Of a stretch of DNA of 64,000 bases, positions 26,927-62,873 are shown one piece after another; the first letter of the stretch is position 1, and every line of letters starts with the position of its first letter. The DNA comes from Lophium mytilinum (taxonomy: Eukaryota; Ascomycota; Dothideomycetes; Mytilinidiales; Mytilinidiaceae). Made by a program: the position numbers and the translations under genes. Where the stretch lies: contig MU004191.1 in assembly GCA_010093605.1 (NCBI GenBank), forward strand, positions 737,832 through 801,831, given 5' to 3'. The notes under the pieces were generated by a model, which had not been told where the DNA came from, ran no database searches, and saw nothing but the letters and a program-made list of their open reading frames with translations.

Positions 26927-27077
26927 TGTCACGTATGAGTAGCAGGCGTACGTTGTGTACGTGATGTGCAAATTAGAATATTAATTAATTAAGTAATAAT
27001 GCTAGCTACTAGAAAGCGAAAGGGTTGTAGGAGCTCTATGGCTCCTACCTCCACGTTAGAGCGGTACGCTCCTGACA
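26927..27077 (-). repeat. Element A 3' LTR (left copy, little mutated)
   Basis: 151 bp, TGTCA...TGACA. Retains many TpG and CpA steps and an internal inverted repeat (GTAGGAGC...GCTCCTAC). It differs from the right copy at 35 sites, 34 of them C-to-T or G-to-A in the right copy. Confidence 0.92.
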
Positions 27078-28094
27078 ATTGCCCCCCTCCAAAGAGAGCG
27101 GGTGTCCTTATCCGCATGCTAGAGATTAGAAGAAAAGGTCCCTAGAAAGCGGGTGTCCTCTAATATAAACTAAAGAAAGAGGGAATTAAAAGGAAAATAG
27201 GCATATTAGGGCTATACGCCGGGTATAATAAACTAGAGCTAAGAAAAGAGTTTAAAGAAAAATAGGCATAATAGAGCTATATACTAAGTATAGTAAATCT
27301 TAGTTACTAGATATTTAAGTACTTCTAGGTAATTAAACTATAGCTAATTAAACTAGAAGGTAATACTATAGATAATTAAGTCTTTCTTTTATATTTAGAT
27401 TTACGCGTAGTATATAGATAAGAGTTCTTAGAAATAGTTATAGAAAATTTCTTTATAAGATTATATAGTTTCTACTATTATATACTTACTTAAATAGTTA
27501 TAGATAGCTACTTAGGTTTTAGTCTTATAGCTAAAAATACTATTAGCTCTAGTAGGCTATCTTTAGATAGAATAGGCGTATTTTATTATAAGTAAATATT
27601 CTATATACTTAATAATAACTTCTATATTTTATATTTATTCTTCTTTACTTATATAAAATTAAACTTAGTATTATTTAAATCTCTATTATTTATATCTCTA
27701 TTATAACTACTATAGGTTTTATATAATTATAGGCTATATATATTATTTAGAATATTATTAAGTATATTAGTAACTTTCTTTTATAGATTAAAAGCTTTAT
27801 ATTTAAGGCTACTTATTTCTAGCCTCTTTATCTATAAGTATTTATTAGAGTATATAGCTAGTATAGACTATACTTTTCTTCTATTTTTAAATATTTCTAT
27901 AAATATTTACTATAGAATAAAATTACTATATTATTACTTAACTAGTCTCTATTATACTAGGGTTAGTAGGGGTTATACTAGGCTAAATAGAGCTAGTAGA
28001 GCTAGTATAGCTACTAGGGCTAGCTATAGAGCTTATAGAGTTAATAGAGCTAGTAAAGCTACTAGAGCTAGATATAAAGCTAGTAGAGTTAGTA
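27078..28094 (-). other. Element A, left internal segment, no recognisable coding
   Basis: Starts with the polypurine tract. 27078 to about 27300 is only lightly RIP-mutated; beyond that mutation is saturating. Contains two copies of a TAGGCATA...GCTATA...GTATA-TAAA unit about 66 bp apart (near 27196 and 27263). Ends in a degenerate AGAGCTAGT minisatellite. Confidence 0.6.
27960..28094. repeat. Minisatellite AGAGCTAGTA/AGCTACTAGG, left half
   Basis: Degenerate tandem units of about 9-12 bp. The pattern resumes at 52948-52978 on the other side of element D, so D landed inside the array. Confidence 0.6.
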
Positions 28095-28272
28095 TATTAT
28101 AGTTCTATAGTTAATAGGCTCTAGTATATAGTATATAATAGATATTTATATATATATCTAGCTAGATACTAGTATTTTATATACTAATACCTATATAGCC
28201 CTTAAGGCTATATCTACTAGCTAGTAATAGAATACCTTTTACCTCTACTTTTATTACACTTAAACTATACTA
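28095..28272 (+). repeat. Element D 5' LTR
   Basis: 178 bp starting TATTATAG, preceded by TAGTA. Aligns without gaps to 52770-52947; differences are mostly transitions, this copy being the more AT-rich. Confidence 0.9.
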
Positions 28273-28373
28273 TTTAGTAGCTTAGTACTATACTAGTAGA
28301 GCTTTATTAGCTTACTAGCTTACTTATTATAAGTACTAGATTTATAGTTCTCTAAGAACCTTAGAATTATTAC

Positions 28374-28573
28374 TATTATAGCTATATAATTATATATAAT
28401 ATATAACTAGAGGTTATATAATAGAGGCTCTATAGAATAGATAAATATTACTCCGCTCTTTAGGTTATTATAATATCTATTCTAGAAACCTCTTTCTCTC
28501 TTATATTTATCTTTTATTAATATTAATACTATTTAATTTAATAATTCTAACATTCTAACCTTAAGCCCTAATA
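28374..28573 (+). repeat. Element B 5' LTR
   Basis: 200 bp, gap-free match to 36822-37021, more AT-rich than its partner; preceded by ATTAC. Confidence 0.93.
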
Positions 28574-30939
28574 TAAGATAAATACTCTTCTAGCTTCTAG
28601 AAGTAATAGAAGCACCCCTAGAAATTTTCTATAATAGAGTGCGCTTTTATAATAAGCTATAGAATACCTATACCTTTCTATATAGTAACTATTAGTAGAG
28701 TTATAGACCCCTAATAAAGACTATACTAATATAGTATTCTATTAGTAGCGCCGCAGGCCCCTAATAAAGTAATCTAACTATTATACGCAATATTAGGTAA
28801 TAGACCTTATAACTATAGTAAACGCTCTATAATAAGCCCCTATAATAGAAAAGTAGTAGTAGTACTCTAGAAAGTCTCTACTAATTATTAATTACTTTAA
28901 TAGCTCTATAACTTCTTCTTCTATTTACTATTACTATATAAAGACTAACGCCTAGAAAGCTTAGTATAGATAATAGCGCGTACACGCGCCTAGTATTACT
29001 AATTAATTACTATTACTATATAGAGACTAACGCCCGGAAAGCTTAGTATTAATAATAGCTAGCCTACGCGTATACTTAGTATTATAGAATAAATATTTAT
29101 AGACTACCTATTTTCTATATACTATCTATTTTCTATATACTACCTATTTTATAAATAGACTATCTAATACTAAACTTATTTACTATAGCCTCTAGATAGT
29201 CCCGCGGCTAGGTATAACTAGTACTACTAGTACTACCCTTTTAAACCTTCCACGCGTCTAAGAGCGCGTAGTAAATAACCTAATTTTAATAGGCTCTTGC
29301 ATATAAATTTAATACCTTACCCCTTTAAGTTTCCTTTCTTCTATACTAACTTTTTCCACCTTCTTATATAGCTAACTCTAATTACTATACTTTTAACCGC
29401 GCTAAAGCTCTATAGTTTAGTAACTCCGTCTCTAGTAAATACTCTACTACTAGACGCCTATTTAGTAATACTAATAGCATGCCTATTAACCCTCGCCGCA
29501 TTAGCATTATATTATAATAAGAAGGCGCTCTAAACCTATAGCACCTTCTTATAGAAGATAATAATAATAATATAATATAGATTAATTATAGCCTACAGCC
29601 TCCTCTTATTTAACTAATAAATCCACCCTTCTAGAGCGCTACTTAGTCTTAGTTATAGATATTAGCTACTACTTTTTAACCTCTATCTATTAGACTAATC
29701 TCTTCTATTACGCCCGCTAAGCTCTAATATTATTAAACTAAGTTTAGTACTATAGGTAAACCCCTACTAGTTACTCTAGCTCCTCTAGTAGAGATAATAC
29801 TTCTAATATCTTACGTTAGTAGTTATATACTAGGCAACTTCTATTTATCTACTATAGATAATATAACTACTAGACTTAATAATATAGCTACCGGACTTAA
29901 TAATATAGCTACCGGACTTAATAACACTACCGCCTATAATAAGGACTCCTCCTCTAACTTTAATTCCGCTGATAAATATAACTATTAAGAGGAGGAATAT
30001 TAGTTTAGTAATAATATAGATAATAAAGTTAATAAACTTAAAATAGCCTACTAAGGTATTACTATTAATACTTCTAACGCTATAGCGTACTATAATACTA
30101 TTTCTAAAATATATTAGTCCCGCAACTCTAAGTATCTAAGAATACTACTAGTTTATAGTATTCCCTTCCCTAATATATTTCTATTACGGCACTAATCTAC
30201 CCGCGTTAAATTAATTACTAGACTTAACACTTCTAACTTAGCCTAGTAAGTAGCGGGTATAGAATAAAGTAATAAGTAATATATTATAATACATATAGAA
30301 GACTATTAATAATTATATCTAGTAATTATATAGCGCGCTAGCAGCTCTATCTTTAAGATGTAGTATAGTAATAGACTATAAGAATAATATAAGCTTTAAA
30401 ACCTATAGAAGCTTATTTAAAATATTTAACTAGCACTATAATAATAGTAGAACTATATTATACTAGTAGATAAGAACTATAATAACTCTAAGTATAGAAT
30501 AAATATTACTATATAAGAATAAGACGCTACTAATACTACTATTAAGAACCTAAATAAGAAATATTTACTTACTAATAATAAACTCTCTAAGCTTTAGATG
30601 CAGGTCCGCACTCTTAACTATAAACTTAAGTTTAAGTAGATAGAGTTAGCCCGCGTATAACGCCTACGTAATAAAAAGCACGCTAACTTCTAGGCCTAAA
30701 CCCTTTAGCTTAATAACCTAGAAGCTAAATACTAATAGGCCTTAATGCGGATTACCTAGCTTAAAGCTTAAGTCTAATAGAATATATTAGCGGAATAACC
30801 TAATAATCTATATATAGATAAATACTCTAATTATAATTCTACTAATAAGGCCTTTCTACCGCTACTAGTAGAACTATACACCCTTAACCTAAATAAGTTC
30901 TAGCGTAACCGCGTTTTAGAATAATACTTTACTACTACT

Positions 30940-31860
30940 AGAGGTAGAGGTAGAGGTAGAGGTAGAGATAATCTAAATCTAAGCTAACTAGGCGGTTTTA
31001 CTTAGCTATAGGTCTATGGACCCGTCTATCCTTAATTTAGATAATAAGGCTCTTAACCTAAGTATACCTACTTATAGGACTTTAAATTAAAAGCTTTAGT
31101 ATATATAGCCTAGAAGAACTATCTAATCTACTTAGTCTAAGTAGACTAGTAGACCTATTCTATAGCTATAACCTAAATCTAACTTACTATTAGCTACTAT
31201 AAGGGGCGTATATATAAGGTTATAGAAGACTATAGTCTTCTTATATCTACTAACCTATATTAATTACTTAAGAAACTTATCTAAAACCTAGACGCTATAT
31301 TCTAAAAGAGTAACACTATTTATTATAACTGCCTTCTTAACTAGCTTAATAGTAAGGGCATAAAATAGTAATATAATAAAAAGACGTTAGACTTTCTATA
31401 ATATCTTAATATTATTCTTAATAGGCTAAAGTATAGCAAAATTAATAACAGCCTCGCGACTTAATACTGTTACCTTAAGAAAATACTACGCACTAATCTT
31501 GCTAAATATATTAACTTTAGTTTATTAACCTAGTACTAGATAAAAGATAATATCCTATATAAGAACTATTATTGCATTTAACGTAAAAAATAAGCCTATA
31601 AAGAGCTTCTTACTATATAGATCTTAGTATACTAATTAAATAATATATATATATAAGATAGCTATTATAATATAAACTGCGTCTAATATAAGTAGTTTAT
31701 TACTAAGACTAATAACTATATTATAGTTAAGAAGACTACTATAGTTCCGTTACTAAGCGTTCTACTATATATTTATTTACGCCTTAGTAAGAAAGAACGC
31801 TGCTTTAGCTACTTTAAGAAGAACTACCGTACTAGCGACTCTAAATGCGCCATGGCTAGA
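30940..31860 (+). pseudogene. Element B gag relic with RG repeat and damaged zinc knuckle
   Basis: A hexamer run GGTAGA (about 30940-30968) reads Arg-Gly repeats. A knuckle-like segment begins C at 31801 and ends C at 31846; the expected second Cys and the His both read Tyr (TAC at 31810 and 31825), the products of G-to-A in TGC and C-to-T in CAC. Confidence 0.6.
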
Positions 31861-33249
31861 AAGACTATAATAGAGGCTTAGCGCGATAAGCGCCTTACCG
31901 CCGCTAGTATTAATAGTCTAGAACTTAATGCCTTTAACTATAGTAGTAACTAAAAGTATTAGTATAAGTATAAATATAAGAATAAATAGGGATAAGATAA
32001 TAAAGAAGTTTATTCTAATAGTTTAGAAAATACTTAATCTCTAATAAAAGTTATTATTAGAGATAGTTAGAAGATACGCTAGCTTAAGCTCTTATATATA
32101 TCTAAGAGCTTAAGCTACCCCCTCTAAAACCCCCTAATATTAAACTTTTAGCTTACGCTATTAGACTTGCCCTATTATTAAGTAAATAGATAGACTTTAA
32201 CTATAGAATTAAAACTTTAACTAGAATAGCTAAATCTATAGTCCTTATAGACTCTAGATGCAGCGGATTTATATTTATTTCTATAAGCTTTATAAAATAC
32301 TATAAACTTAATATCTATAAGGCTACTCCGTGTAATATTAAACTGCTAAATAGTTCTACCTTAGTTATTAATAAAGTAGCTAAAGTTACTATGCAGATTA
32401 AAGGACACTATAATAAATTCTAGGCCCTTATCTATAATCTTAAAGGCTATAATATTATTCTTAGTATAGGCTAGCTTATAATATATAATACCTATATAAA
32501 ATTTAGTACCTAGATAATATAACTAGACTTAAATTACTACTATTCTTAGTGCCTAGTTAATTATAAACTAGTCTATATCTAGTCTAAAGACCCTATTACC
32601 TATACTAGTAAACGCCTATTCTAGTAGAAGCTTAACACCTAACTTACTACTTTTAAAGCGCTTAATATTAACATAGTATCTAGTAATAAGTATTTATATA
32701 ACTTCTAGTAGTTACTAGAGAAAGATACTATCTATATATAGCCTAAGTATTTTAAACTAACGCTTATAGATAAGAGAGAGAAAGCCTAAGCGCGCGCTAA
32801 TAGGCGCCTATATAAACTAGGTAATACTATCCTAGGTCTAGTAAATTTTACTAATAACCTAGCGGCTATTAGTCTCTACGTAATATTAAAGGACAATTAA
32901 TAAAAATTCTTTAAGAAGATAGAGCGCAAGCTAATAACTTATAATAAACTTAAAGCGCTAGTGCCTATTAAATATTATAGCTTTCTTAATATATAGAATC
33001 TAAAGAAAGCTAATAAGCTTCTACCCTATTATAAAGTAAAGGACGGCACTAATATTAACTACTATATTAATATTAAGCTAGAAACTAAGGCCCCGGCCTA
33101 TAAAGTCTATAGGCTCTTATAAGATAAAATACTAGTAGTTAAAATATTTATTAATAAAATATATAGTAAAGGCTATATTAGAAAAAGTAATAGTTAGTAT
33201 ACTACTTCTATTATTATTATCTATAAACTAGAGGGAGGCCTTTATATTT

Positions 33250-35400
33250 ATATAGACTATTAAGGCCTTAACACTATTATAATTAAAGCTTATAACGTTC
33301 CGCCGGCTATAAAAGATACTCTTGCGCTATTAAAATATGCTAGATATTACATAAAGTTTAACATTATAGCCGCTTTTAACGCTATTAGAATATAAGAAGA
33401 AGATAAGAAATACACGGCTTTTCTTATAAGATATAGCCTATTTAAGTTTACTATCTTACCTTTTAGCCTATATAACGCTCTAGCGACCTTCTAGGCCTTT
33501 ATTAATAATATTCTACTTAAATACCTTAATAACTTCTATACGGCCTATCTTAATAATATTCTTATCTTTAGTAAGACGTTAGAGGAATATATAGGCTATA
33601 TTAAGAAAGTCCTTTAATAACTTTATAAAGCCGGCCTATTCCTTAATATTATAAAATGTAAGTTCTATAAATAAGAGGTTAAGTACCTAGGCATTATTAT
33701 TAGTGTTAACAGCCTTAAGATAGATCTAGCTAAGGTTAAAATAGTTATTAACTAGCTATAACTATAGAACCTCTATAATATATAAGCTTTTCTAGGCTTC
33801 TATAACTTCTACTAGCGATTTATTATTACCTATTCTAATATTACAGGGCCGCTTATAAGACTTACTAGAGTAGAGGTCTATAAGTAGTTTACCTTTCTAT
33901 AGTAGAAAGGTAGCTTAAAGAACTTCTTCTTTAAGTAGATAAAATAAGCGTTTATTAATGCTTCTTAGATAGCCTACTTTAATCTAAATCTAAAGATCTA
34001 GGTAGAATATAATATATTTAATACTATTATAGCTACTATACTATTCTAAATATAAGCTAATAGCATCCTCTATTCTATTGCGTTTATATCTTACTAAATA
34101 AGCACAGCCTAACTTAATTATTAAATCTATAATAAAGAACTTCTAGCAATTATCCGCGCCTTTAAAGAATAGCGTATAGAACTTACTAGTTATAGCTATA
34201 GTAACCCTATTAAAGTCCTTTTAGACTACTAGACATTATAGTATTTTATAGAAACTAAGTAGCTTAACTAGAGATAAGCTAGATAGGCTAAATTCCTCTT
34301 AGAGTTTAACTTCTAGATTACTTATAGGCTAGGTAAGAATAATAGCAAGGCTAATTTACTAACTAGGCGCCCAGGCAATATACTAGATTAGGATAATAAA
34401 TGCTATAAAATCTAGCAATAAACTATCCTTAAGAATTATAATCTAGAACTAGAAATGCGTTACGCTATTAAACTAGTATATATTATAACTAACGGCATTA
34501 TATATAATATAGTCTCTCTTATAGTAATAATATATAACCTTAGTAAAGTAAAACTTAATTAGGGGGAGTTATAAAATAACTCTAATAAAGAACTGCTAGA
34601 GCTACTAAGTAGGCAGAGGGAGTTATAGAGTAGCCCTGCTAAAGATGCAGTAGATTAAGATATTATAGATTATATATAAGAAGCTCTTACTAATAATATT
34701 ATTACTAACGCCATTAAAGATGCTATTAGAGCTAAGCTTTACTACTTACCTACTAACATTATTAAGAACTACAGCGTTAAGCTTAAACTCCATAACTATA
34801 TAATTTATAATAGCCTTATCTTTATTTAAAAGGACTGTCTATATATTTCTACTAAGAAGAAACTCTAGTTAGCTATTATTAAAAGCCTATATAAATCTCC
34901 CCTAGTTAGCTATAGTAGAACTACGTCTATATATAACTAAGTTTTAATATATTACTTCTAGCTATAAATAACTAATAATATTAACTACTATATTAAGGCT
35001 TACTAACTATATAACTATATTAAGTACGCACGTAATATAAAGTAAGGCTTTCTTAAACTACTTTCTATTTCTAAGAGGTACTAGACTAAGCTTATAGTTA
35101 ATTTTATTAGTCCCCTACCTATATACTTATAATTTAGATAAGACTACTAATATATTATAGTTATTATTAATAGACTATCTAAGATGCGCAAGTTTATCCC
35201 TATAGTAATAATAGACGCTAAGAAAGTCGCCTAAGCATTTCTAGAATAGATCTAGCGTATAGAAGGATACCTAGAATTAATTATCTCTAATTAGGGTTCT
35301 TAATTTATTTCTACCTTTTAGTCTCGCCTATATAAATATATTAGTATAAAACTAAAGCTATCTACTATATTTTACTCTAAAATAGATAGATAGACTAAAA
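33250..35400 (+). pseudogene. Element B pol relic (RT, RNase H, integrase)
   Basis: All in one plus frame: IDY-stop-GLN at 33252-33272 (family VDYRGLN), YLNNIL at 33546-33563 (YLDDIL with both Asp changed to Asn), TYRLGKNNSKANLLTRR at about 34320-34370 (the end of RNase H), and SN-stop-GS-stop-F at 35286-35306 (integrase SDRGSQF). No frame change is needed across 2 kb. Confidence 0.85.
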
Positions 35401-36504
35401 TTACTAATATAGGCCTAAAGTAGTTCCTCTAAGCATATATTAACTACTAATAAGATAACTAGGTTAATTACCTTACTGTAGCTAAATTTAAGGCTAACTC
35501 TATAAAGAACGCCTCTACTAGTATAGCCTCTTTTATAGCTACTAAAGGCTATATTCTAAATACTAGCACTATACTAGCTATATAACTACCCCCTAATATA
35601 AACGCACTAATAGTTTAACTTATAGAATAAGTAGATAGGCTAGTAGATAGACTTAATAAGTTACGCGCCTTTCTCTATTAAGAACTTAAATAGGCCTAAG
35701 CTAAATAGAAAGAATATACTAATACTAGATAATGGGCAGCTTATATATATTATCTAGGTAATATAGTTATACTTAATATACGCTTTATTAAAATAACTCG
35801 CCTAAATAAGAAACTTAACTTAAGAAACTTAGCCTCTTTAAAGTTCTAACTAGCTATAAAAACGGCAGCGTATATAAGCTTAAGCTACCTAAAGGTATAG
35901 AAAACCTGCACCCTATCTTCTATTCTTAGCTACTCTACCTAGCTAACGCGGTCCCTATAAAAGGATAGTATAACCCTATACCCCTACCTATATAGATAAC
36001 GCTAACGTATTAAAAAGGTAATACTAAGAAGATTATTAACTACTATCTTAATAGAAGATAACTTAACTCTACTATAGGTAAAAGGGGTATACTTTAGTAT
36101 AAAATTAAGTTTATTAGCTATAATAAACTCTAATAGGACAACTATAAATATGCTAATAGCTACCCCCGCCTTATTATAGACTTTTACTACCGTTACCTAT
36201 ACCCTAAGAAACTAAAACCTTATCCATTATTTAAACTACTATTAGACTAGAAACTAACTTTAGCTACTATTCTTACCGCTATAGACCTCTATATAACTAA
36301 CGCTATAGAAGCTATATAATTTAATTACTAGACCGGCGGTTAAATTAATTTATTAAGAAGGCCTAACTGCGGACGTGCGCAATAATTAATATAATATAAT
36401 AATATAGATTATTATAAGTACCTAGTAGCAGGCTAGCAGCTATAAAGGCTATATAGCTCCTAATAGCTCTATTATAGCCGGCCCTAGTTTAAATAAATAA
36501 GAAG

Positions 36505-36610
36505 ATAGTAATACTATATATAGTAATACTGCGTATAGTAATACTATATATAGTAATACTATATATAGTAACACTATATATAGTAATACTACGTATAGTA
36601 ATACTACTAT
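36505..36610. repeat. 15-bp tandem repeat near the 3' end of element B
   Basis: Six to seven units of ATACTATATATAGTA type, some with unmutated GCG or ACG in place of ATA. Confidence 0.7.
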
Positions 36611-36821
36611 ACTAAAATAGTAAGGCTATAGTAGGCTATATAAAAATAGAAAGAATAAGTAATCCTCTATAAATTAATTTATTTCCTTTATTTACTTACA
36701 GCTAAAATATAATTAGGCACTTTCTTTAATAGATATTTAAGTAATTATAAATACCCTAGTATAGAAAGAACTCTCTCTTATAAAAGCTTTAATTAGGGGG
36801 CTTCTTTAGAGGGGGGAGACG

Positions 36822-37021
36822 TATTATAGCTATATAATTGCGCATAATATATAACTAGAGGTTACGTAATAGAGGCTCTATAGAATAGGTAAACGTTGCT
36901 CTGCCCTTTAGGTTATTATAACGTCTATCCTAGAAACCTCTTTCTCTCTTATATTTATCTTTTATTAATATTAATACTATTTAATTTAATAATTCCAACG
37001 TTCTAACCTTAAGCCCTAATA
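36822..37021 (+). repeat. Element B 3' LTR
   Basis: 200 bp; keeps more C/G (for example TGCGCA, AACGTTG) than the left copy; followed by ATTAC. Confidence 0.93.
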
Positions 37022-39067
37022 ATTACTATAGATATCTACGTTACTATAGTTATCTATAATATTAATAATATCTATTAACTCTACTAGCCTATATTAGTAA
37101 TAGCTTCTATAAGCTAGATATATATAATAGCTTCTATAAGCTAGATAGGCCTATCTATTAGTCTTAGATTTCTAGTTACTAATATTTTAGAACGCTATAA
37201 ATCTAGCTTCTTAAGCTTTAATTAATAAGCTATTTTTAATAACTTTCTAGAAATCTATTATAACTTTCTAGAAACCTTTAATAACTTTCTAGTAAGCCTT
37301 TTATATCTTCTAGAAGTTACTATTATACGTTCTATAGGTTTTAAGTAAGTAGTTCTATAGTATAGAGAAAATTATATTATTAATAAACTCTATCTACTTT
37401 TCTTTCTATACTTAACTTAAACTCTTCTCTTTATTAACTTCTTATTTATTAATATCTACCTTATTATATACGCTAGTAATAAGCTCTTTAACGCCTATAT
37501 AGAAGAAGACTCTTATTAGTAATATTACTAAATAAGTTAATAATACTATTAACTTAAATATCTATATTTTATAAGCCGCCTTTTATCTTTTATAGCTACT
37601 ATTAGTTTTATACGGCCGCCCTTAATCTTTTATAGCCGCTATTATTTATAGGCCGTTATTAATAACTCTAATATTAGAGATACTATTATCTATACTTTAT
37701 ATCTATAACTAGCTTAACTAGTAGTACTTTTTTTCTATAGTATATATACTCTAACCTACCTTAAAATATTATTTATCTTAGGCACTAGCTATATACTTTT
37801 AAGCGTGCTAATACTAGGTAAGTATAGAGTTAGATACTTAACACCGCTCTTAGTAGTAGGTTTCTTATCTAGTTTCTAATAGCTAAATATATACTTAGTA
37901 GTAAAGCTTACCCCTTAAAGTAGTTATTATTAGCTTATACTCTCTAAGCTAATATTAGAAACTTCTTATAATAGCTTAAGTATTATTAGGTTACTATTAG
38001 TATTAACTCCCTCTATTTAATAGATTCTAGGTATATAAACTAAATAGAGTAGATTCTATATAATAATACTTAGAATCTATTATCTAATATAGCTACTAAC
38101 TTTATAGCCTAATAGTAGGCTTAGATTATACTAATTATCTAATAATCTATTAACTAGGCCGTCTAATAGGCCTTTTAGGCTCTCTAGCTTTCTTAAGAAT
38201 AGGCTAGCCTATAGGGCCTACTCGGGCCGCTAGAAGCGCCTAGTACTTAAGGCCCTGCGGGTGTAGACAAAGCCAGTACTAGAGGCAGTAACTTCTATAT
38301 CTAAGAAGTTAGGTTCTTCTAGCTAGACTCTAATACTAATAATATATTTTATATTAGTAATAATATATATATTAGTAATATATATATCTTTATTAAGTAT
38401 ATTAAGAATATTACTAGATTATTTAGATATTCTAAAGACTTTATAAAGAATAAGCTACTCTAGTATCTATATAGTAGCGCGCTTATATAGTTTATCTTAG
38501 CCCTTATAAATCTTAAAAAGGGCGGCCTCTACTAGCTAACCCTTAAAGAAGGCTAGTATAAAGCTTTAATCTACTAGTTTAAGAAGCCTCTTATAAAGTT
38601 ACTATTAAAGCTAATATTAGTATTATATACTCTTTAGAATACTAGAATAGACTATAGCCTATCTACCTATATCTATAATATCCTCTATAATACTAGAGCC
38701 TCTAACCTAGAATAGATAGATAATAGGCTTATCTTTATCTAGAAGGGTATAGATCCGCTTCTATATAATAGCTTCTTAGCGCCTACTAAGAATATAGCTA
38801 TCTATAAATTTATCTAGATATTAGAGTTCTAATATAATAATTAGATAGACCTTACTAGTATCTACTTATAAGGCTTAGTAATAATAGCTTCTAGAAATAG
38901 TTAGTACTCTTTTTTCTCTTCTTAATAGAATTTCTAGCCGTTTTTCCGCCTAAATTAAAACTAGAACTAGTAGTACTAATAGTACCGCGGGTTCTTAAAC
39001 TAATCCGGGGGTTAATTTAATAATATTAATTCTTAATCTAATACTTACGCCCTATAATAGTAAAGCG

Positions 39068-39269
39068 TGTTATAGACTATAAAAAGTAAGGTATAAAGTA
39101 TAGTATTAAGTAAGAAATAGGGTATATTTATAAAGATAAAGTTATATAAAGATAGAGATTCTATATAGTGTAGGCTAAATATAGGCTAGAGGTATAAAAC
39201 TGCGCTAGCGCATAGGCTTATATAATATAGCTAAGAGTATATAATATATATAGAGCTAGATCTATTATA
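39068..39269 (-). repeat. Element C 3' LTR (left copy)
   Basis: 202 bp beginning TGTTATAGACTAT; preceded by AAGCG; pairs without gaps with 46761-46962. Confidence 0.92.
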
Positions 39270-48849: not shown

Positions 48850-51060
48850 GCGCTTTAGCTTTCTAGTCTTTATAGTTTAGAAGTCTATTCTAGTTAATAA
48901 CATGCTAACTAGAAAAGGCCGCGTAGTTATTAATATATAAGGCCTTAACTATATTATAGAAAAGAACTTATACCTATTACTATATTAAGAGAACTTAATA
49001 AGTATAGTATCTAGCTATAAATATATTACTACTATAGATATAGTCTTCTTTTTCTATTAGTAGTCTATATAGTATAGTAATTACTCTAAATTTATAGTTA
49101 TCTTCTATAGGGGCTAAGAGTATTTTAATATTACTATTATAGGCTACTATAATTCGCCTCTATATATCTAAAGATAAGTTAACCGCATTATTTAAGAATA
49201 TAACCTTAAGGCTTTTTATTAAGCCTATATTAATAATCTTATTATCTATAGTAAGTTACTATCTAAGTATCTATAATATCTATACTATATATTTTTAGCG
49301 CTTTAAAATACTAATATTATATTAAAGGGCTAAAAATTATATATTAGCTATCTATTCTTAATATTACTAGGCTAGAAGGTTAATACGCTTAGTATAACTA
49401 TAACTACTAAGAAGCTTACCGCTATTTAAAATCTTAGCTTTCTATCTATACTTAGGGACCTAGAATACTATCTTAGCCTTATAGGCTAGCTACGCTAGTA
49501 TATTAGCTACTATATACAGCTCTTAAAAGCCCTCTAATAAGAGAAAATATAGCTTCTTAAAATAGCTTTAAGGGCTAGATAGGTATATACCTACTATATA
49601 TAATCTATGCATATTAATAATTCTTCTACTAAGCTCTATAACTTCTATAAGGCCTTATAGGCCGCCTTTAGATAGAAGAAGATTCTAGTTTATTTCTAAC
49701 TACGCTATTATCTATATATTAATATAGACGCCTTAAAGGTATAAGGCTTTAGTATTATAGTATATTATATACTTAGTAACTCTATAGAGCTTAATAATAT
49801 TAAGAGAAGTAAGATATAGCTAGTCTTATTTCTTAGTAAGCTTCTCTCCGCTGCTAAGTAGAACTACTAGCTAATAGAACTTAAGGTAGTATACTTAGTT
49901 TAGGCTATTTATTATATCTATTATCTAATTAATACGTTAGAATACCCTACTATTATTATTACTAACTACGCTACTACCCTTAGTATTACTAAGTCGGCCT
50001 TCTTAATATCCTTATTAGTAGATAAGCTTAATTTACACCTTATACAGGCCTTATAGTATCTCTTTTAGTTCTAGCTTAATATCTACTATAGGCCTAGAAA
50101 ATACTATTTTATACTAGACGCTTTATTCTAACTTACTATCTATAGGCCCCCTATAGATATAACTATAAATACCTTAGAGAAGCTATATATCTTTAATACT
50201 ACTATAGTTAAGCTTACTAATAACTTCTATAAATACCTTATAGAAGTATATAAAACTAATAAGTACTAGGCTAGAATATACTTTTTACTAGCTGCGCTAG
50301 ACACTAGCGTTAGCTCTATAACTATTTATAATAACTATACCTCTATAATTATATATAATACCTCCGTACTAGAGCCTATAGCTATCTAGATTATAGTTCT
50401 AGACGCCTAGATTAATATACTACCCCCTAGAATTTCTTACCTTTTATACTAGGGCCTACTCTACTATAAGAACCTATTTAATAGACGCCTCTATCTTTAT
50501 ATATCTAAAAGTCTAGAGGGTAATATATTCTATAAATACTATAATATCTACTTATATATTAGCTTCTATAGGTTCTATAAGTATATCTAGATATTCTACT
50601 ATATTTAGTACCTTACTTATTATCTATAATGCTATCTAGACTACTATCTAGTATACTAGGTTATTACTATAACGCGCTATAAGCCTTATAGTACTCTTAT
50701 ACTAGTATAGTTACTACTAATCCCTTTCTATATAGTAATATTAGACTTTATTATTAGACTTCTAGAATATAATAGCTTTAATACTATAGTTATAATAATA
50801 TATAAGTTTAGTAAGCGCGTAATAATAGCGCCCGGGAAGGAAACCTATAATACTAAATAATAGGTATATATTATTCTTAACGCGCTTATAGATTAGGGCG
50901 TTCCTGCTACTACTATTATAGATAGAGATAGAAAGTTTATTTTAGCTTTCTAGAAGGCTATATTTAAATAGCTTAGTACTAAGATATTAATATCTATAGT
51001 ATATTATTCTTATATAGATAGCTAGTCTAAGAGAACTAACTAAACTATTAAGATAGCCCT
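48850..51060 (+). pseudogene. Element D pol relic
   Basis: One plus frame carries a damaged RT (KGRVVINI-stop-GLN near 48917; FFY near 49046; YINNLI at 49226-49243) and integrase (DRDRKFI near 50921, then the STAYHPQTDGQSERTNQ-like segment ending about 51042). Stops are TAA and TAG; Asp-to-Asn and Gln/Trp-to-stop changes match G-to-A and C-to-T. Confidence 0.8.
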
Positions 51061-51225
51061 TTATTATTTTCTATTATAGCTAAATAATAGAAACTAGCCG
51101 CGATTTCTACTAGCTCTTTACGCCACGCTAAATAACTCTATTAATTAGTTAATAGGCTTATTACTAAATATAATTATCTATAGCTTCTAACTTAATAAAG
51201 GTCTTCTAACTCTCTAAGCTAAGAA

Positions 51226-51315
51226 CCTATTATCTATAAACCTATTATCTATAAATCTATTATTTATAAGCCTATTATCTATAAATCTATTATCTATAAA
51301 CCTATTATCTATAAT
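51226..51315. repeat. 15-bp tandem repeat in element D
   Basis: Six units of CCTATTATCTATAAA with transition variants, downstream of the integrase relic; a period of 15 keeps the reading frame. Confidence 0.7.
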
Positions 51316-52516
51316 TATATAGGCGTTAGAAATAGCTATAACGCTAGAAGCTTTTACCTTTATTACTACCTAAAAACTTACTTAATATAAAGCTGCTAAC
51401 GCCTTAGCTTTTATAGCTACTTAAATAAAGCTACACTTTAATAGTATACGCGCTAACTTATAGCTATAGCCTGGCAACCTTATATATATTAGGCTATATA
51501 AAGGCTATAAGCTTCTAGAGCTTATAAACTATAAATTTACTTAATAGTATATTAGGCCTAGAATAATTAAATATACTATAGAAGAGAACACCTATAAAGT
51601 AGATATTTCTTCTACCTAAAAGATTTACCCTATAGTCTTAGTTAAATAGCTTAAGCCCGTAATAGCTTCTAACTAAGACCCCTACTAATATAAAGCTTTA
51701 AGCTAGCCTACCGCTATTAAAGATAACTATAATAATAACACCGGCGCCTACTATAAGGTTAAGCGCCTAGTAGCCCGGCGTCTCTACTAGATAGGCCGCG
51801 CGAAGAAGCTATTTATAGAGTATTTAGTTAAGTAGAAAGAATATAGACTAGAAGATAATTAATAGTATTAGAAGGAGGATATTAATAAGAATCTTATAAA
51901 TATCTATAACCTAGCGCACCTACTAAATAGCTAGTTATTAACGGCCTTCTATAATATCTAGTTATCTATAAAACTATTATTCTAGGGCCGGTATTAGTAT
52001 AAGTATATCTTAAATATTATATGCCCCTATTTATTAGTACGCCGCCGTCTATTAGAAACCTCTATCTTAGCCGAGTTTAGCAAACCTATTATTAGCAAGC
52101 TAATTACTACGGCTTAATTACTTATCTATAAGCTAATTACTATAGCTTAATTACTTTTCTATAAACTAATTACTATAGCTTAATCGCGGCCGGCTATAAA
52201 GCCTTTATAGCCCTCTATAGCTTTACTAGCTATTTAAGAGTTATTCTTCTTTATAACTTACTATCTTATGCAACTTCTATAGGCCTATTATTTTATATAA
52301 CTTCTATAAATCTATCTTCTTCTATAGATCTATTTTCTTTTATAACTTATTTTTTATAAGTTTAGACTTCTTCTCTATTACCTCTATTATTATTATTAAT
52401 ACCTATAAACCTACTACTAGAACCCGTAAATACGCCTATAGAAGCCGTTATTATATACACCCCTATTATCTTACCTAGGCAGCGTCTTTTACCTACCTAT
52501 TATTATATTTATAAAC

Positions 52517-52632
52517 TATCTTCTTTTATAACTTCTATAAAAGTTATAACTTATATAAAGCCGCCGTCTTTTCTAACTTCTATAAAGCTATCTTCTTTTA
52601 TAACTTCTATAAAGCCGCCATCTTTTATAACT
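52517..52632. repeat. Degenerate tandem repeat near the 3' end of element D
   Basis: Repeats of a CTTCTTTTATAACTTCTATA type unit about 27-33 bp long, with related copies back to about 52260. Confidence 0.5.
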
Positions 52633-52769
52633 ATAAGTTTACTAGAAGCCTATAAACTTATCTTAAATATCTTATTACCTATAACCTCTTCTTATAATAT
52701 TATAATCTTAGATATAATTCTCTTAGGTACACTTATTAAGAATAATAAGATCTTTTTATTTAGGGTAGT

Positions 52770-52947
52770 TATTATAGTTCTATAGTTAATAGGCTCTAGT
52801 ATATAGTATATAACGGACGTTTATATATATACCTAGCCGGACGCCGGTGTTCTATATACTAACGCCCGCGTAGCTCTTAAGGCTACGCCTACTAGCTAGT
52901 AATAGAATACCTTTTACCTCTACTTTTATTACGCTTAAACCGTGCTA
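52770..52947 (+). repeat. Element D 3' LTR
   Basis: 178 bp, preceded by a purine-rich TAGGGTAGT and followed by TAGTA. Keeps more C and G (several CCGG, GCCCGCG-type steps) than the left copy. Confidence 0.9.
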
Positions 52948-52952
52948 TAGTA

Positions 52953-55900
52953 GAGCTAGTAAAGCTACTAGAGCCGGGCGTAGTTATTAGATAGTATTAT
53001 TCTTAAAATTCTTAAGTAGAAAGAAGTTTAATAGTAGTAGATAGATTATATTATATCTAATATTAAACTTCTTTATTAGCGCCTATATATATATAGCGCT
53101 CTACCTATTATTATATAGGGCGGAATTCTAAAATACTATATTTATATCTAAAGAATAGTTTAGTATTTTTAAGTATATATCTAGTATAGATAATATATTA
53201 ATAATAGCTACTATAGACTAATCTTTAAACTTAGTATAATAGCTCTTTAATACTTATATTATACTAGAGTAGTATAATATTATTTCTCTAAGCTCTATAA
53301 AAAGCTTCTTTATATAATTATTTTAGCGCTTAAATAAGTTAAGTATACCTAAAGTATAGTTATTTATTATATATAGTAAATAGATAGATATCTTAATAAT
53401 TACTTACTTACCCTTTTAGTTATAAAGAGGTTTTAAGGTTTATAGATATTATATATATAAGGTATTAAGCTAGGCTTTAGTTATATACGCATTAATCTAT
53501 AAAGCTTTTAACTTCTTTATAGTTTCTACTAGGCGCGTATTTTATATATTATAGTCTACTAATAGAGTATTATACTACTATTATAGATTATATATATTAG
53601 CTTATATACTATAGTTCTTTAATATATTATATTATTACTAGAGTATTTATTTCTTAGTCTATATACACTTATATCTCTTTATAGATCTCTAGTTTACCTT
53701 TAATATATTATCTAAAGTATTATAAAGAACTAAAATCTTCTAATAGTACTAGTTCTTAATATTAATAATATATACTTCTATAATTATAAGATTCTTAGTT
53801 AAATATAGATTTATTATAACTATTATTTTAAATTCTTTCTATAGGGAGTTATAGTTATTTATTATACGTAGTAAATAGGTAGATATCTTAATAATTACTT
53901 ACTCGCCCTCTTAGTTATAAAGGGGTTTTAAGGTTTATAGATATTATACGCGTAAGATATTAAGCTAGGCTTTAGTTATATACGCGTTAATCTATAAAGC
54001 TTTTAACTTCTTTATAGTTTCTACTAGGCGTGTATTTTATATATTATAGTCTACTAATAGAGTATTATACTACTATTATAGGTTATATATATTAGCTTAT
54101 ATACTATAGTTCTTTAATATATTATATTATTACTAGAGTATCTATTTCTTAGTCTATACGCGCTTATACCTCTTTATAGATCTCTAGTTTACCTTTAATA
54201 TATTATTTAAAGTATTATAGAGAACTAAGATTTTCTAATAGTACTAGTCCTTAATATTAATAATATATGTTTCTATAATTATAAGATTCTTAGTTAGATA
54301 TAGGTTTATTATAACTATTATTCTAAATTCTTTCTATAGAGAGTTATACTTATTATATAAAGTATTCTAGTTTTCTATATAAATATATATTATACTATTA
54401 TTTAGTATATTAAGTTCTTATATTTCTATTATATACTAAATAGGTATTATATAAATCTTATAGAATATTATTAATGCTAGTAGCTAGGGCTACAGCTTCT
54501 ATATAGCCTATAATTCCGGCTATACTATATATTTAAAAGCTAGAGGCTCTAGAAATTTAAAGTCTTTTACTCTCTACACCTTTAAAATCTTAGGGGCGTC
54601 TAGTTTAGCTAATTATAGTAGTCTAGCGCTAGACTTAGCTAATTTAATAGATTATAGTAGTCTAGAGGCTATACTAGAATTCTACTATAGAAATACGCGT
54701 ATATTATTTATAAGTATAGAGGGGTCTATAATTTCTATAATTATAGGGAAAGGCATCTATAGTATAGAGTTTATATAGAGTACTAATAGTATAGAGGTTA
54801 GAAAAGAAGCTATTAATATATAAATTATATAGGATATTAATAGTATAGGGGTTCTAAGTAAGAGTAGCTTAACTTAAGTTCTTATAAATAAGCTGCTGCG
54901 CCGCTTTTAACTACTAGATAGAATTTAGTTCTTAGCTTATAGCAGCCTATTACTATACCTACTATTAAGTATATTATTCTTAAGCTTACTTTATACTATC
55001 TAGTATATAACCTATAAACACACTAGAGTTATAGAGAGTAATAGATTACTAGAAGATATATAATAGTTACTTTTAGTATAAACCTTTATAAAGGTTCTTA
55101 GTAGAGAAATCTATATATAGTACTAAAATTTACTTTATAGATGCCCTATATATATTATACTTCTATTATTTCTTTATAGTATCTAATTATGCTATACTTA
55201 GAATTTCTTTATTTAGAGCTTAGTATCTCTTAAGGTCTACTTATAAGCTATATATCGGGTTTATATTTAAAGCTAGTACTAGATTAAATAGCTTAATTAT
55301 AAGCTATTAAATACTAACTCTATAGTTTTCTTTAATAGTATTAGAAAAACTATATAATACTTCTTTATTCTCTATAGTATAGTAGTTTCTATATAGCTTA
55401 CTATATCTCTATATACTATTATTATCCTTAATAAGCTAAGGGCATCCTACTAATATTCTCTATAGATATAGTTTCTTTAATCTTATAAAATCTCTAGAAT
55501 AGTTCTATATAATATAATTAATTAATATCTCGCGCGCCTTAACTAGTAATACTATCTTAACCGTAATATAGTCTAATAAATAGATAAAATATAGTAGAAG
55601 AATATCTACTATAGGTTCTATTAATATATTATATATAGTAAATCTATATACTAAAGAGCTTATATAGGCTATTTTATAGTTTTTATCTTTTATAGCTAGT
55701 AGAATGCGTTTATTACTATTGCCCGGCTTCTAGTATTAGAGGTAGATTATTATGCGCAGCGTTTATTATAATAGAATTATATAAGGGGTAGGTAGATAGA
55801 ATTTATTATATAGATTATGCGGCGGGTATAGCACCTATAGCGCGGCCGCTTTTTATTATAGTATTATAATAAAAAGTAAGGTTATAAAGTTATAAAAGTT
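52953..55900 (-). other. Element A, unassigned segment downstream of pol
   Basis: About 2.9 kb of RIP-saturated sequence between the D insertion and the pol relic of A, holding the 495-bp duplication. Both strands are full of stops and I recognise no protein motif. It may be a long untranslated region, an extra gene, or an older unrecognised insertion. Confidence 0.5.
53356..54345. repeat. Two-copy tandem duplication, 495-bp unit
   Basis: Copies 53356-53850 and 53851-54345 start ATAGTTATTT and end ...CTTTCTATAG.GAGTT. They match closely; differences are nearly all transitions, with CpG kept in copy 2 where copy 1 has TpA. Confidence 0.9.
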
Positions 55901-56899
55901 TATAATAGTTATTTTTATTATTAATATTACTAGAATAATAGTAATACTAAAGTTAGAAAAGAAATATACTAAAATACTAAGATACTAAAATACTAAAAAT
56001 AAACTTACTATTACTCTATACGCTACTTGCGGCGCCTTTTATAGTCTTCTATAATAAAAGGCATATTCTCTATAAGCTATATAACTAGTTTCTCTATTTT
56101 CTTCTTATAGCCCTTCTATTAAACTATATACTTACTACCTTATAGCGTTTACTTCTATTATATAATCTTTTCTATAATCTATTTCTCTTATTCTTTAATA
56201 AGAAGTAGTAGCGGTAGTACTATATCTTTTATTAATAGGTTTAGTATAGCTTACTCTAGATATACTATACTAATTACTAGATAAATTCTACTATAGGTTT
56301 TTAGTAGGTAAAGTTTATATGCTAGGTTATTAACCCGTCTCTTAATTTTAAAAGGTTCTACTTTAATAGTAGATAGAGCTATACTACCTAGTAACTTAAA
56401 ACTAGGTTTTATTCCGCGTACTACTTTTAGATATACTAAGCCCTTTAGGTCTAGAATTATTCTTTTTCTATTATAGTATACTACTATTTAGGCTTATACT
56501 AGCTTAAATATATTAGCTATATCCTATTATATTAATTCCCTATTAGTAAGAAAATCTAGTAATATATTATAACTACTCTTCTTCTAGAATATCTTAGGTA
56601 GTATTCTATATAGTACTTTAAATAGCGTATTCTTTATTAAATTATTAGGCGCTATATTTAAGCTATATTCTACTATTAGTAGGGCGTTCTACTATTCTAT
56701 TTTATACTTACTAATAAGTAAGTATTAAAGTATAGTTTCTACTATCTAGTTTATTTATTCTACTTAGCTATTAGCTAATAGGTAGTATAAGGTTATTATA
56801 TATAAGTTTATACTATATTTAGTAAAAACTTTCTACTAGAAAGTACTTATAAACTTAGGGTTATAATTACTAATAATAGCCTTAGGTAAGCCCTATATA

Positions 56900-59800
56900 C
56901 TATATAACCTATTAAAAAAATATTCTACCTAGACCTCTATAGAGTCTATATTAATTTCTAGAATAAGTAGTACTACTTTTAAAAATTTATCTATTACTAT
57001 TATAAGCGTATTATATTTTTATAGGGAGACTAGTAGCTCTATAATAAAGTCTATTATAAGTATATAGAATAGCCTATCTAGAGTATATACTAGTTTTAGT
57101 TTACTATATAGACGCTTTTTACTATATTTTAATATCTAGTATACTAGGTATGCGCTAATATATTTATCTACTTATTTTCTTAGTTTTAAAATATATACTT
57201 TATAATAAAGCTTCTAGTAAGTCTATACTAGTCTAGTATAGCTATATATATTATATACGGCCCTAATAGTATTATTAACTATAGTAATAGGTAAGTATAT
57301 ATACTTAGATTCTCTATCTCTTATATATAGTAGGCCTTAGTTAAATAGAAAACTATAGTAGGTTACTATTTTATCTAGAAATACTTTAATCTTATTTCTA
57401 ATATATTCTAGAATTACCCTAAACGCTTAGTTCTATAGTAAGTCTTCTTATATTCTAGTTTTATATTTATTCTTTACTATTATAGTAATTATTACTTAAT
57501 ACTATATAAGCTAAATATTAAGCTTATTCTTTTTCTATATAGTATCTCCTTCTACTAGAAGCTATAAAAGTCTATTAGCGTTATTATAGTATTTCCCTAG
57601 TTTATAGATAATAGTTATATTATTAAGATATATTACTAGATATATTTTCTACTTCTTTAACCTCTAGAACCTATAATTTTTACTATCTATCTATAATACT
57701 AACTATAGGGTATTATAATTAATATACGCAGTAAACTTATTTTCTTCTAGGTAATACTATAACTTATATAAGGCCTATACTAGTACTCTAGCTTTAAGCT
57801 CTATAGCCTAATAGTTACACTTATATTTTTTTAGTTTGCGGCTAATAAAGTATATAGGGCGCTTAACTTTCTTTATATCTATCTAGTATAGGGCGGCTCT
57901 ATAACCTTATTTCTTACTACTATTAATATATAAGATAAAGTCCTTATTAAAATCTAGAATAGCTAGAATAGGCGCTATATATAGCTTATTCTTAATCTTC
58001 TACTAGGCTTAAAGATATTTCTAGAATAGATTTTCTATATACTATTTCTCTATATAGGTTTTACACGCTCTACTCTCTAGTAGGCTATCTTTTAATTCTA
58101 TTATTTTTAACTTATATAATAGGCTAATAATTTTTATATACCTCTAGACGTACTATTTATACTATCTAAAAAAGGTAAGCGCGCTTTCTAGCTTCTTAAG
58201 TATTTTAGAAAATTATAGGTTCTATATAGCTTTAGTCTTTTCTATAGTTATTTCTAGGCCTAGCCTTAATATATAATATTCTAGGGCGTCTAGACTAGAG
58301 TAAGTAAAATAGTATTTTACTAATAATAGCGTTACTTCTAAATTATATAGAAGGTATAGAATCTTATCTAGATATTCTAGATATTCTTCTAGTATTCTAG
58401 AGTATATAAGAATATTATCTATATATACTATAATAAATTTCTAGAGGTATTTTATAAATATATACTCTATATAATATTAAAAGAAACCTAGTAAGTTTAC
58501 TAGTTCTATTATAGCTATAGTAAGCTACTTATATTCTCTATAAAAGATAAAACTAGTTTTCTATCTATCTACTATATATAGCCTTTACTAGAAGAAACCT
58601 TTAACTATATCTATACTAGAGAAAATTATAGTACTACTAAGTTAGTTAAAGATTTTATTCTATTTAGATAGTAGATATATATTAGGGTATAGCTTTATAT
58701 TAACCTTATATAGATTAACTACTACTCTTAGCTTACTATTTCTCTATACTATAAAAGCTAGCAATACAGCTACTATAGACTATTCTAGGGGAACCTTTTT
58801 AATTTATTTTTAAGTAATAAGTAAATCTAGAATTTTATCTATAGCCTTCTTATCTTTTATAGACTATTTATACGCTTTCTACTTTAGGCCTAGTATATCT
58901 ATCTTATCTTAAAATAGAATAGGTATTTTAATACTATTATTAAATAACTCTAAAGGGCTATTAAATAACCTAAAATATTTAGAAAGAAGCTTTAGTATAG
59001 AGTTCTTATATTTCTTACTAAAGTATTCTAAGATATCTATATTTTTTATCTTAGGGGTCTCTTTCTAAAGGTTTAGTATAAATAGAATTAGGGGTTTACT
59101 ATACTTATTATATACTTTTACCGCGAATACTAATATAAAATTAATATTTGCCTAGAATAATCCCTTTATCTTTTCCTTCTTAAATCTTAATAGGTATCTA
59201 AGCTATCTACCTTTATAGAGTATAAGTAGTTACTCTCTAAAGTTTATAAATAGAATAGGACTATTAGTATCTAGTAGTATAGCTTATATACTATATCTAT
59301 ATATACTATAGGCCTTATCTATAAAATCTTAATAGGGAATAAATAGATATAGGCTAATATTCTTTTATTAGGCTTATATAGGTAAATTAAGGCTATAGCC
59401 TAGTTAGATAGTAATATCCTCTATTAAGAATACTCTTATTACTACTATTCTTAGTTTCTTTATTACTAGTAGCGTGCGCGCTATTACTTTAATTAGAATT
59501 ACTATCTCCCTTTTATATAGCTAATCTAGTCTCTTTTTATCCGCCTATATAATATTTAACCTAGCTAGTTAAAGTATATTAATACCTAGTAGTAGGCCTA
59601 TATTAAGGTTTAAAATAATATATACCTTAACTTTAATATTAACTAGTTCTTCTATACTAGAGAGGAAATATACTATAATATTTATATACTATTTTATACT
59701 AACTAATTTTAAGCTAATTCTAGTTATAATAACCTTCTTTTTTTAATTTTTAATTTTTTTATGCGGGTAGTATTACTTAAGAAAAGTTTAGTCTATAAGT

Positions 59801-60100
59801 ATAATTATAGAGCCTATATCTAGATTTACTCTAAATATTAATGCACCCTCTATAGGTGCTATAGCTAAGACTTTTATATTAATATACTATAAGAACCCCT
59901 TACTAGACTTAATTTATTTACTAATTTTAATATAGTAGGTATATACTAAGATAGCTATACCCTCTATAACTAATAGGAATTTTAAGCTGTCCGGGGGTTT
60001 TATATCTAGTAGGTTGTAACCCGGTATTAATAATCCTCTTTCTTATTTTCTAAGAAGGAGGAGGAGGAGAAGTTATCTATAAGCTATTTAATATTATTAA
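56900..60100 (-). pseudogene. Element A pol relic (reverse transcriptase to integrase)
   Basis: On the minus strand the RT active-site box reads YIDNIL at 58425-58408 (YxDD with the second Asp changed to Asn, the effect of G-to-A), within VYIDNILIYSRILEEYLE. The integrase start reads IDFIIELL around 57054-57031. The distance is a multiple of three, so one frame is kept although TAA/TAG stops are frequent. RT before integrase indicates Gypsy order. Limits are approximate. Confidence 0.8.
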
Positions 60101-61398
60101 GCGTGCTAGAGAAAGTATTAAAGTTATTATTATTATCTTTATATTTATCTACTTCTATCTTATAGGCTTTTATATTATCCCGGCTTACCTTATTCTAATT
60201 TAGGTATAGGCTTTACTAGTAGAATTTAGCTAGCTTTTCTAAAGCTTTATAGTACCTATAGGGCCTTTAGAGTTTACGCTTCTAGTACTTATTATTCTTA
60301 TTATTTAAGCCTTTTATATTCTTAATACTAACTTTCTTACTATTATTTTCCCTAGTATCTAGTTTTATAGCGTATAGTCTATTTTATCTATTTTACTATA
60401 ATAAATCTAACTAGTCCCCTAGTCTTCTATTAGTTTTTTCTAGTAGTATTTATATATAGTCTATAGCTAGAAATTATTCTATATCCTTTACTAGCTTATT
60501 TATAATATACTATATCTATTCTACTACTAGAAGTTACTATTATACGCGTCTCTAGAAGTCTTATATAGTATCTCTAACTTTATATACTATAACTATATTT
60601 ATTAATACTAGTTTAAGGCCTTTCTATATATTATATATAATATTATATTTATCTATTATACTAGTATTATATAGAAGGTTAACTTTCTAAGTTATATACT
60701 CTAATAGTAATAGCTATTCTACCTTAAAAAACTAGAATTTTAACTTTCTAGCCTTTTTACGGGTAATATACCGCGGCATGCAGTATTCTTAGATTAATTA
60801 GTCTTTCTAGTGCGCGAGGCTTTTATTTATTAGCTCTCTTATTATAGTAGATAAAGCTATATACTAGTCTACTACTATTTCTTATAGATATAGTAGTAGT
60901 ATAATTAAGACTTACTATTTACTAAATACTTATATAATTTATTTAAAGCGTTAAATAAAGGTTTCTATAGTTCTTTTATTAGGGTTCTAGAGTATTATAT
61001 CTACTAGGTATAGCTTATATAGAGGTGTCTATATCTATTATAGATATATTATATTCTCTATATCTACTAATTATATCTAGTATTAGTTTTTTAGAGGTTT
61101 TTATAGATTTTCTAATAATACTTCTTATAATAGCCTTTATAGTTATATATATTTCTCTACTTTATCTTTCTATTAACTAAGATACTATACTATATAATAA
61201 TTATACTATACTAGGTTCTTATATATATTCTAATATCCGCGTTCTTATATACGCTGTTTATTTATCTAGAGGTACCTCTTATTAGGGGGGTATTTATTCT
61301 AGAAATATTATACTTTAGGCTGCGGGCATTATTTATTTATTTAAAGGCGTTATTTATTCTTAATAATCTTAAGTCTATTAAGAATATTCTATATTATA

Positions 61399-61493
61399 TT
61401 TAGTATAGTAGAATTTAGTATAGTAGAGTTTAGTATAGTAGGGTTTAGTATAGTAGGGTTTAGTATAGTAGAGTTTAGTATAGTAGAGTTTAG
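61399..61493. repeat. 15-bp tandem repeat in element A gag region
   Basis: Six units of TTTAGTATAGTAGRG (R = purine), in frame with a repeated pentapeptide on either strand before mutation. Confidence 0.75.
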
Positions 61494-62722
61494 GTTTTTA
61501 TTTAGTAGAGGGTGTATTCTAAGAAAGTCTATATTTTTATCTCTATTATCTACTTCTAGTACTTTATAAAAGTCTATAAGTAAGGCTCTCTATATAGTAA
61601 GTTTTAGATCTTTAAGTAGATACTATAGATTTTCTAGTTCTACTTATATAGCTACCTTCTAAAGATATTTTTTTTTTCTACTTCTATTAATAGATTAATA
61701 CCTTATATAGTACTATAGTTTATATCTATAATTAGTATAAATACTATAGGCTAGTTAAAGTATTACTATACTACCTTCTAGATAAGTATAGCATTATCTT
61801 AGTACTTAGTCTTTAAATATCTAAGGCCTATCTACTATTAGTAGTAGGTTTAAATTAATTTCTAGCGGAGGGGGTTAATTATTAGTCCCTTCTAGTCCTT
61901 ATATATTAGTAGTAGTAGGCTTTTAGAGGGCTTCTCTAAGAAAGAAGTATATAAAACTACCTTTCTACTTACTTAAAATATATAAGCCTAGCGTAACCTT
62001 TATAAAACTATACTATATTTCTATAGATTATCTATTAATAGCTATATCTAGTCTATATTAAAATTAATATCTAGCTCTAGAGCTATATAAATACTATTTA
62101 TAAGTATATATACTATTTTAGCTAGCTCTATATTATTTATTTTCTACTTATCTAGTACTATTAGGTTTTTATTATCTAGAGGGTACTCTTATAGGATAAT
62201 TTTAATAATCTAGAAAAGCTTATTATTATTAATATCTTTATTATTACTTCTACTTTATTATTACTCTTATTCTACTATAATACTATATATATTTACTATT
62301 ATATCTATAGAGAGCTATATAAGAAAATTAAAAAATAGAGAAAAAGATTAAGAAGCTACTATTATATATAATAATATATCCTAGTTTATTTTATTAGTAA
62401 GTATCTACTAGCTTTAAACTTTAAAGTACCTTAGTTAAGATACTTAGCTAAGGTACTAGAATAGTAGTAGAATATATATAAGTAGCTTTAACTTACTATA
62501 ATAGTTATAGTAGGCGTATAAATAGTTTCTAGAGTTTTAAGACTACTATAGTAGGCCTATATAATAAAAAGAGGCTAAAGAAATCTAGGTTTTTAATAAC
62601 TTTAGTAAGTAAATAGTACTTACTAACTATATAAGCTATTAGAGAAAAGAGAAAGTTTACTAGATAGAGTAGATAGGTAGTTAGTAATCTCTAGGTTTTT
62701 AAAATATAGCTTAGCTACTAAC

Positions 62723-62873
62723 TATTATATATAAGTAGTAGGTATATATTATATATATAATATATAAATTAGAATATTAATTAATTAAGTAATAATACTA
62801 GCTACTAGAAAGAGAAAGAATTATAGAAGCTCTATAGCTTCTACCTCTATATTAAAGTAGTACGCTTCTAATA
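62723..62873 (-). repeat. Element A 5' LTR (right copy, heavily mutated)
   Basis: 151 bp, TATTA...TAATA, aligned without gaps to the left copy. Nearly all TpG and CpA have become TpA. Followed by GCTAC, the mutated target duplication. Confidence 0.92.

Follow-up and report, generated by a model that had tools for sequence, protein, structure and literature searches.

A nest of four LTR retrotransposons with four readable target-site duplications and RIP-type mutation in the fungus Lophium mytilinum

The window analysed here is a stretch of 64,000 nucleotides from the genome of Lophium mytilinum (C11:737832-801831; genome size 43.18 Mb, 24 contigs), in which four nested long terminal repeat (LTR) retrotransposons, designated A to D, occupy approximately 36 kb at 26927-62873. 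The outermost element, A (approximately 11.1 kb without its contents, minus strand), contains D (8.3 kb, plus strand), and D contains B (8,648 bp at 28374-37021, plus strand) and C (7,895 bp at 39068-46962, minus strand). The start and end of the originally predicted interval coincide exactly with the ends of A. The G+C content is 0.508 at positions 1-26921, 0.24-0.29 within the elements, and 0.506 from 63000 onward, and the onset of the AT-rich block is sharp and located at A. Scans of the window for Rfam families and tRNA genes gave no match.

Self-comparison of the window recovered four LTR pairs, the ends of which were then fixed to the base. All four pairs align end to end, gap-free, and have the equal lengths that had been predicted: 151 bp in A (26927-27077 and 62723-62873; 35 differences), 178 bp in D (28095-28272 and 52770-52947; 27 differences), 200 bp in B (28374-28573 and 36822-37021; 17 differences), and 202 bp in C (39068-39269 and 46761-46962; 13 differences). 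The left and right LTRs are the 5' and 3' LTRs, respectively, of D, and the 3' and 5' LTRs of A. The left LTR of A is less mutated than its heavily mutated partner and retains intact TGTCA...TGACA termini, whereas the termini of the others have been altered by transitions to TA...TA, or partly so. The prediction that all LTRs start with a TGTTA/TGTCA-type end is thus correct for the left LTRs of A (TGTCA) and C (TGTTA), but the other six start with TATTA.

The remainder of A consists of a short interior segment on the left (27078-28094), terminating in the minisatellite that D entered, and a main interior segment on the right (52953-62722). The latter includes a tandem duplication of an approximately 495-bp unit (53355-54358), which is single in the copy of A described below. 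The interior of D extends from B to C (37027-39067) and from C to the right LTR of D (46968-52769). Each element is bordered by a 5-bp target-site duplication (TSD), and all four TSDs sit exactly outside the LTRs, as predicted: GCTGC (26922-26926) and GCTAC (62874-62878) for A, TAGTA (28090-28094 and 52948-52952) for D, ATTAC (28369-28373 and 37022-37026) for B, and AAGCG (39063-39067 and 46963-46967) for C.

Elements of the same families recur elsewhere in the genome. Besides the B of the nest, 17 B matches exceed 3 kb, and 10 of these span from within approximately 340 bases of the start of B to its end; C has a further 10 copies that include 7,880 or more of its 7,895 bp. Both lists are lower bounds. 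Loose BLAST settings produced chance matches near 59% identity in AT-rich DNA, and those settings were replaced. The ends of eight B and six C copies were fetched, and their paired LTRs are gap-free in 14 of 14 cases, although the equal length is partly built in because the LTR ends of these copies were set by alignment to those in the window. A 5-bp TSD was read directly outside 13 of these 14 copies (exact for 10, and differing by a single transition for 3); the stretch fetched for the remaining copy was too short for a reading. In a separate set of six loci, exact TSDs were found for all three C copies, and the three B loci, with one end missing, gave no reading, two of them being copies that were read in the set of 14. 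The TSD of the single A copy inspected, which is located on C18, is CCTTT on both sides.

Two further pairs of neighbouring B and C copies were observed, approximately 250 bp apart at C3:2565300-2582008 and approximately 90 bp apart at C12:199774-209870, so clusters of the two families may be common in this genome. B also contains a tandem array of 15-bp units (36505-36611), partly palindromic and near the right LTR, which other B copies match in reverse as well.

The order of insertion is well supported by the nesting and by paralogous empty sites in the same genome: A was followed by D, and D by B and C. The C18 copy of A (C18:821616-832119; 10,504 bp; 161-bp LTRs) lacks D and continues across the D site; the number of minisatellite units there is not the same in the two A copies, which leaves a gap in that alignment. 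Relatives of D of approximately 8 kb, as judged from LTR matches, are present on several contigs. Among these, the insert at the B site is absent from the relatives on C1 and C2, and the insert at the C site is absent from the relative on C2. The order of B relative to C is not fixed by the nesting because the two lie side by side in D.

Mutation in the nest consists almost exclusively of transitions. Among the 92 differences between the paired LTRs of the four elements, 91 are C/T or G/A transitions, and 22 LTR pairs taken together (4 from the nest, 14 from the B and C copies above, 3 from further C copies, and 1 from the C18 copy of A) show 395 transitions and 2 transversions. The two units of the tandem duplication in A likewise differ by 31 transitions and no transversions. 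The observed/expected ratio of CpA/TpG is 0.04-0.20 inside the elements, 1.06 in the left flank, and 0.89 from 63000 onward; in the 117 bases immediately to the right of A, which are AT-rich and resemble DNA subjected to repeat-induced point mutation (RIP), it is 0.39. The stops within the reverse-transcriptase matches are nearly all TAG and TAA, and a cytosine methyltransferase (DNA_methylase) domain was detected at three loci in the genome. To judge from these sequence signatures, the mutational process in the nest is RIP or a RIP-like one.

C-to-T and G-to-A changes are one-sided in all four nested LTR pairs (left/right: A, 0/34; D, 26/1; B, 16/1; and C, 11/2), as compared with 3 of 18 pairs elsewhere at p<0.05, a comparison that was noticed post hoc, pools different families, and is subject to an edge effect at A. 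It is conceivable, albeit improbable, that RIP is uneven in such a way that bouts within a nest act on each LTR of a pair as a unit of its own; if this were true, separate bouts of RIP would be naturally recorded in nests.

The assignment of all four elements to the Ty3/Gypsy-like group is supported for A, B, and C by reverse-transcriptase matches and a Gypsy-type gene order, with the matches in A scoring below the Pfam cut-offs, and would extend to D through a motif and one relative. The reverse-transcriptase matches in B (33306-33701, plus strand) and C (42395-42862, minus strand) are among 150 listed genome-wide, and a query derived from another element of the genome identified reverse transcriptase followed by RNase H in both (32982-33869 and 33993-34385 in B; 43099-42194 and 42103-41720 in C). 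With the same query, tblastn also found reverse transcriptase in A on the minus strand near 58425 (E 1e-5), where the Pfam RVT_1 match is below the cut-off (E 0.027). A match to the integrase C-terminal domain SH3_Tf2-1 is located downstream of it (56254-56487; E 6.5e-6, 26.6 bits compared with the Pfam cut-off of 30), and RNase H was not found in A. Integrase_H2C2 was detected downstream of reverse transcriptase only in other copies, namely in B copies (C3 and C11) and in a C copy (C14). In Pfam searches of stop-free pieces, no match was obtained for five of seven pieces from A, two of two from B, and one of three from C. D carries, at 49226 on the plus strand, what we take to be the reverse-transcriptase active-site motif, and a relative of D on C21 has an RVT_1 match (88791-89240) at the corresponding place; on this indirect basis, D may also be a Ty3/Gypsy element. 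The same 614-kb contig, C21, contains 28 of the 150 listed reverse-transcriptase matches, several with few stops; it is rich in repeats and perhaps less mutated in places.

To the left of A, a minus-strand open frame encoding a Q/P/Y-rich sequence leads from the left TSD toward a ZZ-type zinc-finger domain (Pfam E 9.5e-10) in 25460-26563. The putative gene (25460-26926) appears to have been cut upstream by A. Its low-complexity N-terminal part (26589-26928, minus strand) contains one switch of reading frame near 26,800, which may reflect a short intron, decay, or a sequencing error. A second copy of the gene was not found in a DNA search of the genome, and a literature search on the ZZ protein yielded nothing of use among the papers listed. 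A likely broke this gene, as implied by the prediction of an invasion of one host gene, and the gene would have lost its function as a result. Beyond the opposite end of A, at 63678-63961, there are stretches of approximately 100-185 bp with counterparts of 66-81% identity at several sites on C2, C7, C11, and C12.

These data are best explained by four insertions of LTR retrotransposons, one within another, followed by RIP mutation, a reading to which we assign a probability of roughly 0.95. The integrase of each element would have made the usual 5-bp staggered cut, giving rise to a 5-bp duplication. A was inserted on the minus strand, probably into the 5' part of the ZZ zinc-finger gene, D then entered the minisatellite inside A, and both B and C, the latter on the opposite strand, entered D. 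RIP, presumably in the sexual cycle, would have acted on all four, converting C:G to T:A in repeated DNA, chiefly at CpA, and this would have filled the reading frames with stops and lowered the G+C content to 24-29%.

Several observations weigh against this reading. The TSD of A contains one mismatch, a single G-to-A change on the heavily mutated side. That of D is a common 5-mer, accounting for 1.2% of the 5-mers in the interval, and lies within a TAGAGCTAGTA-type minisatellite (tandem repeat) at which the A copies differ in unit number; given that two random 5-mers in the interval agree by chance at a rate of 0.0054, the duplication of D is weak taken alone. The interiors of the D relatives are mostly only 65-72% alike, and the empty-site alignments for B and C are consequently patchy and not base-exact. 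None of the genome-wide integrase matches (31 to Integrase_H2C2 and 11 to rve) falls within the window, and D gave no match in eight of eight Pfam pieces, nor to the reverse-transcriptase query. RID was not identified among the three DNA_methylase loci of the genome, and the right flank contains no continuing frame of the ZZ gene and no recognisable 5' part of it, its first 117 bases being AT-rich and RIP-like.

The last of these points bears on where A landed. If A had landed ahead of the coding sequence of the ZZ gene, in its 5' untranslated region or promoter, with the start codon lying within the remnant, no 5' coding part would be expected on the right; the frame switch downstream of the junction also leaves room for some of the N-terminal part to be non-coding. 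The frame is, however, open up to the duplication and reads as a low-complexity Q/P/Y-rich protein, and a non-coding landing is accordingly regarded as a serious possibility that is somewhat less probable than an insertion into coding sequence. A different origin of part of the nesting, by recombination or assembly joins among similar elements rather than by insertion, might be suspected in a genome with 150 scored reverse-transcriptase matches, in particular for D with its common 5-mer in a minisatellite. Unmatched flanks are the expected outcome of recombination between two copies, whereas the outer duplications match for all four elements (apart from one base in that of A), copies of A, B, and C at other loci end at the same points and are flanked by different duplications, and on C18 the sequence of A is continuous through the D site; such an origin is therefore very improbable. 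Equally hard to sustain is the view that the AT bias reflects the native composition of the elements or plain mutation rather than RIP, for which the failure to identify the RIP gene among the DNA_methylase loci might be cited, in the face of 395 transitions against 2 transversions, the near-extinction of CpA/TpG inside the elements and its normal level in the flanks, and stops that are nearly all TAG or TAA.

The original prediction described the nest as a datable record of invasion. Nested insertion as the preferred reading leaves the order of events readable, but not their dates. LTR divergence in the nest amounts to 23.2% in A, 15.2% in D, 8.5% in B, and 6.4% in C, a ranking that agrees with the nesting, and ranges elsewhere from 3.5 to 11% in eight B copies and from 7.0 to 11.9% in nine C copies. 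Because the differences are RIP-type transitions (all but one of those in the nest) and the copies elsewhere are so widely spread (3.5-11.9%), LTR divergence was rejected as a clock, and the values of 6-23% in the nest gauge the severity of RIP rather than the age of insertion. Among the 10 C pairs, the one in the nest has diverged least; this would be compatible with a late insertion and is indistinguishable from the effect of uneven RIP.

Transversions were considered as a clock proof against RIP. A differs from its C18 copy by 24 transversions in 8,426 aligned columns (2.9 per 1000), and the values are 15-27 per 1000 for three B copies compared with B and 17-24 per 1000 for three C copies compared with C. 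If A bounds the age of its contents, the B and C copies elsewhere would be older or derived from diverged sources. LTR counts conflict with this pattern, with 0-1 transversions in about 202 positions between the LTRs of different C copies, and 4 in 148 and 8 in 151, across indels, between the LTRs of the two A copies; no claim of age is therefore made from transversions.

The elements resemble fungal Ty3/Gypsy (Metaviridae) elements, including Tf2-like ones, in their LTR ends, 5-bp TSDs, the order of reverse transcriptase and RNase H (B and C), and the SH3_Tf2-1 match (A). Unlike in working Ty3/Gypsy elements, stops interrupt the reverse transcriptase of B, C, and A, and none of the elements seen in the window is intact. 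For fungi, nests that carry RIP mutations and legible duplications have already been published (PMC4522978). According to the accessible text of that report, Mycosphaerella graminicola (Zymoseptoria tritici) has 78 nested clusters of 7.5-63 kb, one of which is figured at 47 kb, and TSDs were verified for the base elements and, in clusters founded on a DNA transposon or an unclassified element, for the primary LTR insertion (PMC4522978). The nest described here shares with those clusters the insertion of LTR elements into an LTR base element, 5-bp TSDs, a drop in G+C content, and CpA-biased RIP; it differs in that a TSD is readable for all four members and an uninterrupted copy serves as an empty site, features not found in the accessible part of that report (PMC4522978). 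A caution about LTR ages has likewise been expressed for crapaud, a RIP-affected LTR family of Podospora anserina, the authors of which urge care (PMC10787394). Crapaud is a different family, and, in the part of the article available, the caution arises from U3 diversification and gene conversion, not from RIP (PMC10787394).

The nest leaves the knowledge of nests and of RIP unchanged and is a notably clean instance of a familiar kind of structure. It constitutes an unusually complete teaching case, in which four insertions, the duplication of each, and empty sites can all be read in one genome, and it illustrates why LTR divergence is unusable as a clock in RIP-bearing fungi.

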